Positions 30,583 through 31,839 of a stretch of DNA of 36,635 bases are shown here, piece after piece; positions within the stretch are counted from its first letter, which is position 1, and every line of letters begins with the position of its first letter. This DNA comes from an uncultured Desulfovibrio sp. (GTDB lineage Bacteria > Desulfobacterota > Desulfovibrionia > Desulfovibrionales > Desulfovibrionaceae): contig CAMQVJ010000021.1 of NCBI GenBank assembly GCA_947038175.1, positions 1 through 36,635 on the forward strand, read 5' to 3'. A program made the translations under genes and the position numbers. Under the pieces are notes generated by a model that was not told the origin of the DNA, made no database searches, and worked only from the letters and a program-made list of their open reading frames with translations.

Positions 30583-31647
30583 TTAGGAATAGAATATTAA
30601 GGTCTTGTTTTCAATTCTTGCTCTTGCTTTTTGCGTGAACTTAAAAAGAGAGTTTCCCTTATTAGACATAACTGCATGGTCAAGTTTTTCAAGAGTTTCG
30701 TACTGGGTGAATCCTTTCAGGAGCTTGATAGCATGAGTATAAATCCTAAAACGAAGAGAAGCATGGGTGTTTTGTAAAGCATTTAAAGGCATGCTAATTT
30801 TATTATTTTCATTTGTTATGTGTTGCCAAAAGGTGTCTAATTGTTCCTGAAAAAAAGCACGGTCCCTTTGCGCCCCCTCATGCAAATGTTTTATATTTTC
30901 TAAAAAACTAGGATTTTCAGAAAGAAAAAATGGCAATATTTGTTTACGGATGCGATTTCTAAAAAATTGTTGGTCTTCGTTGCTTTCATCGTTTGCAAAA
31001 GGCAGAGCCAGTTCTTGTGCGAAGCGAATCAGTTCCCTCTTATTTTCCTTAAGAAGGGGGCGTAAAATTTTTCTTTCCTGACATAATTCTTTCATTCCAC
31101 CAAGAGCAGGCCATGCAGCCCCCCTTGAAAGGCGCATGAAAATGTCTTCTGCAAGATCATCTGCGTGATGGGCTGTGCAAATAAAAGACGCCCTTGTGAG
31201 TGTTCTTATTTTTTCAAGAAATTCATAACGCTTCAAACGTGAAGCTTCTTCTAAACCCATGTGGGATTCTTGAGCAAATTGAGGAATATTTGCTTTTTCA
31301 TAATAGAAAGGCAACTTGAATTTTTTGCAAAGTGTTTCAACAAAGACTTTTTCTTTTTCGCTTTCCGCTCGAATACCGTGGTTTAGGTGTGCAACATGTA
31401 AGGTGATAGGGTATTTTTTTTGTAAAGCCATGAAGATTGCAAGCATGCATATGGAGTCAATTCCACCTGAAACAGCAAGGAGTAAAGAGACGCTCTTGGG
31501 TTCATGGTCAGGAATTATTTCTGAATGTTCACCTAAAAGCATGTCTAATTGTGATTTCACTCGTAAACACAAAAGAGCGTTTTCTCGAGAAAGTGTGCCA
31601 AGATGTAAGGGTATATCTGACGTGTATTGAAATAGTGTTTTCACCAT
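30583..31647 (-). CDS. tilS: tRNA(Ile)-lysidine synthase
   Basis: 354 residues from the ATG at 31647. It modifies C34 of the CAU-anticodon tRNA(Ile) to lysidine, an essential step for reading AUA codons. Seen: the PP-loop LLLAVSGGIDSICML (SGGIDS at 60-65), HVAHLNHGIR, FICTAHHADDLAEDIFMRLSRG and NDESNEDQQFFRNRIRKQILP. The frame is open for another 42 codons and includes an (AG)13 tract that would be read as Arg-Glu repeats; the family does not have this part, so I start after it. The best Shine-Dalgarno-like sequence (GAGAGG) is the end of that tract, 12 bases from the ATG. Confidence 0.93.
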   Translation of the reverse strand: MVKTLFQYTSDIPLHLGTLSRENALLCLRVKSQLDMLLGEHSEIIPDHEPKSVSLLLAVSGGIDSICMLAIFMALQKKYPITLHVAHLNHGIRAESEKEKVFVETLCKKFKLPFYYEKANIPQFAQESHMGLEEASRLKRYEFLEKIRTLTRASFICTAHHADDLAEDIFMRLSRGAAWPALGGMKELCQERKILRPLLKENKRELIRFAQELALPFANDESNEDQQFFRNRIRKQILPFFLSENPSFLENIKHLHEGAQRDRAFFQEQLDTFWQHITNENNKISMPLNALQNTHASLRFRIYTHAIKLLKGFTQYETLEKLDHAVMSNKGNSLFKFTQKARARIENKTLIFYS

Positions 31648-31660
31648 TGTTATTGAAGAC

Positions 31661-31686
31661 CTCTCTCTCTCTCTCTCTCTCTCTCT
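31661..31686 (-). repeat. (AG)13 dinucleotide tract at the 5' end of tilS
   Basis: Thirteen CT units on the plus strand (31661-31686), read AG on the coding strand. It ends 13 bases before the chosen tilS ATG, so it forms the purine-rich ribosome-binding region, or, if an upstream ATG (31740) is used, an in-frame Arg-Glu run. Such tracts slip during replication. Confidence 0.95.
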
Positions 31687-31839
31687 ACTTTTTAGAAAAG
31701 CATGAGCATTATTCAGGCAAGGGACGTTTGAATCCCTCATGTAAAATTCTTGGGAGATATTCACGCAAAACATTTAGAGACTTAAGAAAATATTGTAATT
31801 CTGCGAAATAGTTTGAACTATAATATACTTTTCATCTTA

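Follow-up and report, generated by a model that had tools for sequence, protein, structure and literature searches.

Slipping repeats at promoters are known from Haemophilus influenzae, in which the TA repeats of hifA/hifB change promoter spacing. In Mycoplasma mycoides, the coding region of the type III methyltransferase gene MmyCI contains an AG tract, and the difference between 10 and 12 units switches activity (PMC3498834). The phasomes of Campylobacter, Neisseria, Haemophilus, and Helicobacter comprise many tracts per genome, which are found at surface and signalling genes (PMC6321876, PMC5953494, PMC2651432, PMC2823697). Within a limited coverage of the literature, we found no account of phase variation through repeats in Desulfovibrio, Lawsonia, or Bilophila.

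We examined an AG repeat upstream of tilS in the window, the whole stretch of 36,635 nucleotides of a Desulfovibrio genome that was analysed (Table 1). An earlier reading of the sequence alone (the sequence-only reading) had placed thirteen AG units 13 bases before the likely tilS ATG and surface-type glycosyltransferase genes upstream of them; both statements are borne out by TRF, by the sequence itself, and by the domains of the upstream genes. On the minus strand the context reads AAAAAGT(AG)13GTCTTCAATAACAATGGTGAAAACA, with the ATG at 31647-31645. As in phase-variable loci built on simple sequence repeats, the tract is a perfect tandem repeat of sufficient length for slipping. Under a first-order Markov model of the window, runs of the (AG)13 type are expected about 3e-12 times per window and 2e-10 times per genome. 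The position of the tract, no more than 13 nt from a start and in sense orientation, is unusual for a random intergenic repeat. Given this position, and a like layout at regulatory genes elsewhere in the family (see below), the tract may have a regulatory role. We think it reasonably probable that it is a slippage-prone repeat that grew within the ribosome site of tilS as part of a wider AG phase-variation repertoire, and that it has little or at most a graded effect on tilS. The repeat itself is a real microsatellite and is probably variable in length. A separate repeat occurs in the gene for ribosomal protein S2 (window 9105-9980, minus strand), where 4.4 copies of a 24-nt unit at 9125-9230 encode AQEAAPAE at the C-terminus.

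Table 1. Features around the AG tract upstream of tilS (window coordinates), and AG tracts of the same genome with their lengths in units.
Feature	Coordinates	Strand	Basis or remark
tilS, tRNA(Ile)-lysidine synthetase, 354 aa, ATG at 31647	30583..31647	-	TIGR02432, PF01171, congener alignment
Putative Shine-Dalgarno core GAGGT, 3' edge of the tract, 11 nt before the tilS ATG	31659..31663	-	Read from the sequence; function inferred
(AG)13 dinucleotide tract (CT on the plus strand)	31661..31686	-	TRF, 13.0 copies, 100% match
Possible leader ORF or N-terminal extension of 42 codons, in frame with tilS and running across the tract, ATG at 31773 or 31740; probably untranslated	31648..31773	-	Open frame only
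192-nt spacer from glycosyltransferase stop to tilS start	31648..31839	-	Gained in the window species
Promoter-like match TATACA-18-TATATT, weak	31822..31851	-	Chance level: 1 found, shuffles mean 1.0
Glycosyltransferase (DUF3880 + Glyco_trans_1_2), intact	31840..33180	-	Same orientation as tilS
GT9 heptosyltransferase-like gene	33137..34471	-	First in the conserved GT9-GT-tilS order
AG tracts on contigs C5 (20), C16 (27), C21 (13; the tilS tract), C33 (18)			
AG tracts on contigs C38 (9), C52 (at least 27), C59 (23)			C38 near contig end; C52 at contig end

The gene next to the tract was confidently identified as tilS (TIGR02432 equivalog, E=1.9e-55, 187.7 bits against a curated cut-off of 93.6) and occurs once in its genome. 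tilS is essential. It thus stands outside the non-essential surface, motility, and restriction genes that make up contingency loci. The TilS proteins of four congeners (G001, G003, G004, and G005; 43-45% identity) align from residue 2-3 of the 354-aa form, and the N-termini are of equal length (MKEHFNFHSALPLHL, MRNTVFSYQNSTELHL, and MRTYYTYNNNKTTLHL in congeners vs MVKTLFQYTSDIPLHL in the window). The conserved translation start is therefore 31647 or the adjacent GTG, which makes the tract a leader. Translation most likely begins at 31647, with the tract in the tilS leader and outside the protein. The tilS frame is open further upstream to an ATG at 31773 and contains another at 31740; from either, the tract would read as Arg-Glu repeats, in agreement with the earlier remark that a start at 31740 would let one unit shift the frame. 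This extension has no counterpart in TilS of the same four congeners.

The gene order GT9, glycosyltransferase, tilS is kept across the genus, with lptF/lptG convergent downstream. The distance between the last two genes varies: they overlap by 1 nt in G003 and G005 and by 8 nt in G001, and are separated by 350 nt in G004 and by 192 nt in the window. The AG tract is absent at tilS in congeners, each species being represented by a single genome. From these comparisons, the most likely course is that in the window species the glycosyltransferase and tilS ceased to be closely coupled and a spacer was gained that now contains the tract. When the spacer was compared with its own genome, the only matches were AG runs of other tracts, and we rejected it as a repeated or mobile element because nothing but the AG run recurs. 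The annotated glycosyltransferase start at 33180 probably lies too far upstream: the proteins of congeners start close to the position that matches its internal Met17 (33132), and a start there would remove the overlap with the GT9 gene (window 33180-33130, minus strand).

We then considered what a change in unit number would alter at tilS. The best Shine-Dalgarno match, GAGGT (5 nt), combines the final GAG of the tract with the GT that follows it. The proposal that the tract supplies the tilS Shine-Dalgarno sequence thus holds in that the tract contributes part of the ribosome site, but pure AGAG matches the anti-Shine-Dalgarno poorly and GAGGT needs the following GT. GAGGT and its spacing to the ATG are fixed whatever the number of units, and the folding predicted around the tilS start hardly changes as the tract grows from 10 to 27 units (between -29.2 and -29.6 kcal/mol). 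With the start at 31647, unit number alters neither the reading frame, nor promoter spacing, nor Shine-Dalgarno spacing; it would do so only with a start at 31773 or 31740, and both of these have weak, unconvincing ribosome sites. If the leader ORF were nevertheless translated, 10, 13, or 16 units would give an in-frame fusion with tilS, 11 or 14 units a TAA stop 2 nt before the tilS ATG, and 12 or 15 units an overrun of about 119 nt past the tilS start.

The sequence of events that we favour would run as follows. The spacer would have arisen first, between the upstream glycosyltransferase and tilS, and the AG-rich ribosome site of tilS would then have seeded growth of the repeat by slipped-strand mispairing, with the AG-specific slippage of the lineage presumably acting on the tract. 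tilS would be translated from 31647 via GAGGT at the 3' edge of the repeat. Judging from this anatomy, gain or loss of units would alter neither the start nor the Shine-Dalgarno core nor the protein, and a strong effect is not expected. Because GAGGT and the start lie at or downstream of the repeat edge, a change in length would be nearly neutral, which would explain why the tract is tolerated beside an essential single-copy gene.

AG repeats recur well beyond tilS. The genome contains seven AG tracts of at least seven units (Table 1), versus no (AC)7 and no (AT)7, while AT tracts are present in some congeners. Across the family, H(AG)8 was found in 59 of 288 genomes and in 14 of 44 genera. 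Thus, in the genome and in the family, AG recurs at many loci, above chance and above other dinucleotides. The flanks of the seven tracts show no homology among themselves. Some of these tracts adjoin housekeeping or metabolic genes, encoding a NAD-binding oxidoreductase, a PHP protein, and a thymidylate-kinase-like protein (identified by the N-terminus only). One lies upstream of a Polysacc_synt_2 sugar dehydratase gene and a fliK-like hook-length gene, and another upstream of a Peripla_BP_6 protein gene. The gene for DsrA scored above the cut-off in 12 of the 14 genomes tested, including that of the window, which marks the family as a largely sulfite-reducing lineage, as predicted from this gene.

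Loss of mismatch repair was rejected as a cause of the tracts at the level of gene absence. mutL was matched in all 30 genomes tested, with and without AG tracts, and so was mutS, above the cut-off in 29; in the remaining one (G005, 80% complete) mutS is a C-terminal fragment only. The genome of the window has mutS, and mutL in one open frame. This mutL (L184 314-2671, G000 C92) contains a hydrophilic insert of roughly 40-60 residues, rich in Asn, Glu, and Ser, in the N-terminal ATPase part, and further on low-complexity repeats rich in Ser, Thr, Asp, and Asn. A contig scan for relatives gave one distant match only.

Other observations concern the placement of the tracts. Among 96 tracts (from the window and from loci L057-L083 and L124-L183), 67 have AG on the C-rich strand, as judged by negative local GC skew (binomial p 1.3e-4, with pieces that are not all independent). 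In one relative (G075), all 13 listed AG tracts are on the plus strand. This suggests a replication-strand or transcription-strand bias. At two contig ends of another genome (G006 C49 and C76; L069 and L070), AG tracts of 20 or 23.5 units lie within homologous flanks that are 87-89% identical, and this is a repeated element bearing an AG tract.

About 100 AG tracts of the family, spanning 8-40 units, were examined with their flanks. ORF-finder starts are often spurious in the GC-rich relatives, so the example genes were restricted to those with Pfam support; the exception is a pair of sulfotransferase-like paralogues named from their N-terminus. Tracts precede genes for flagellin (two loci), a methyl-accepting chemotaxis protein (MCP; one locus), and GGDEF and EAL proteins (three loci). 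They also lie in or before genes for a sulfotransferase (L137), a radical SAM protein (L127), FkbM methyltransferases (L073 and L163), formyltransferases (L063, L078, and L176), a DUF4910 protein (L064), an MBOAT protein (L165), and a sulfatase (L171). One orthologous site varies in length among four close genomes: upstream of a GGDEF gene, the tract has 18, 20, 19, and 21.5 units in G134, G137, G136, and G139, respectively, and the 400 nt upstream of it are 96.8-99.8% identical. Tracts within coding sequence occur both in ON frames (L064 and L141) and in OFF frames (L127, L073, and L128). In L127, at 2229, the tract splits a Methyltransf_23 domain: the sequence that follows it covers profile positions 47-162, and the sequence that precedes it, in another frame, weakly matches positions 15-41. 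In L073 and L128, an FkbM-like C-terminal stretch (ILAIS.YHRPDDFFAIPLCI) carries on in another frame; the short piece of L073 alone has no Pfam match, and its FkbM assignment comes from its position and from the 88% identical L128. The length polymorphism and the ON/OFF genes agree with the earlier expectation that dinucleotide tracts of this kind are typical of phase-variable loci. AG repeats thus appear to be a recurrent switch in the family at flagellin, chemotaxis, c-di-GMP, sulfotransferase, methyltransferase, and glycan genes. In addition, the two tandem paralogues mentioned above (L126 1411 and 2976; N-terminus MKPQLYIHIGFPKTGT) carry AG tracts in the same place, with 16.5 and 19 units, and read into differing C-termini of 95 and 113 aa, which resembles C-terminal switching.

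The layout of a tract within a ribosome site is not unique to tilS. Sense AG tracts end 4, 7, and 8 nt before the starts of GGDEF, MCP, and GGDEF-EAL genes, respectively. Random control positions (12.5%) were mostly inside ORFs and form an unfair null, and we therefore claim no start-proximal enrichment. These three genes are one argument for graded control, in which unit number would tune tilS translation, so that the level of TilS, and hence AUA decoding, would vary from cell to cell. Proposed routes are a longer purine leader, ribosome standby or S1 binding, and altered coupling to the leader ORF. Such control is also favoured by the contribution of the tract to the tilS ribosome site, and by the difference between the three phases (fusion, stop, or overrun) that would follow if the leader ORF were translated. 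Nevertheless, we regard it as unlikely, given the constant Shine-Dalgarno core and spacing, the length-insensitive predicted folding, the poor ribosome sites of both leader starts, and the lack of conservation of the tract in congeners. A stronger form, in which a hypermutable repeat in the tilS ribosome site, drawn from the contingency-locus repertoire, would be a heritable cell-to-cell rheostat on AUA decoding through lysidine-modified tRNA-Ile2, seems to us distinctly doubtful.

The sequence-only reading had raised the possibility of a slipping on/off switch on tilS, and this finds no support in the position of the conserved start, downstream of the tract. A frameshift switch would require translation from 31773 or 31740 through an Arg-Glu-coding tract, with slippage toggling tilS. 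The frame is indeed open for 42 codons upstream of 31647, and coding Arg-Glu tracts lie near the N-terminus elsewhere in the family, for example in the DUF4910 gene and in a histidine kinase gene (L180). However, the extension is missing in all congeners, 31647 has the better ribosome site, and cells in which an essential single-copy gene is OFF would not survive; we consider this switch very improbable. There is a similarly slim chance that errors of assembly or sequencing account in part for the unit number or for the tract. The assembly is a draft of 149 contigs, and other AG tracts are at contig ends (C38 and C52), but the tilS tract is interior to a 36.6-kb contig and has conserved genes to its left and right, the single 3.7 Mb contig of the relative G075 also has such tracts in its interior, and four separate genomes share orthologous tracts. 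Finally, although the upstream glycosyltransferases belong to a typical phase-variable class, it is highly improbable that the tract serves or served another gene, as a surface-glycan operon switch or as the relic of another gene end that had been suggested earlier, here the end of the glycosyltransferase: this gene is complete at its 3' end, the protein aligning with those of congeners up to residue 445/446, and its stop is 153 nt upstream of the tract, no plausible plus-strand gene lies on the other side, and the spacer has no second copy except for the AG run.

Phase variation by AG repeats is already known as a kind, and its repertoire in Desulfovibrio relatives is apparently undescribed. 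The tilS tract alone is of minor importance unless expression proves to depend on unit number; the broader value lies in a testable AG repertoire in a family that mostly carries dsrA for sulfite reduction, which would be new information of a known kind. Like the hifA/hifB repeats, the tilS tract is non-coding, lies near a start, and could tune expression. Unlike them, it has no place between -35 and -10, as the 13 nt to the ATG leave no room there, and a role as a tilS promoter spacer was rejected. It resembles the MmyCI tract in being an AG run of similar length (13 units vs 10 or 12) in which one unit shifts a frame, whereas the MmyCI tract lies in the coding region and the tilS tract before the conserved start of an essential gene. 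The family as a whole resembles the phasomes of Campylobacter, Neisseria, Haemophilus, and Helicobacter in having many tracts per genome and, as reported for H. canadensis, C-terminal frame switching. Those phasomes are built mainly on homopolymers and tetranucleotides, while the only unit in the genome of the window is AG, in a family that mostly bears dsrA in the genomes tested.
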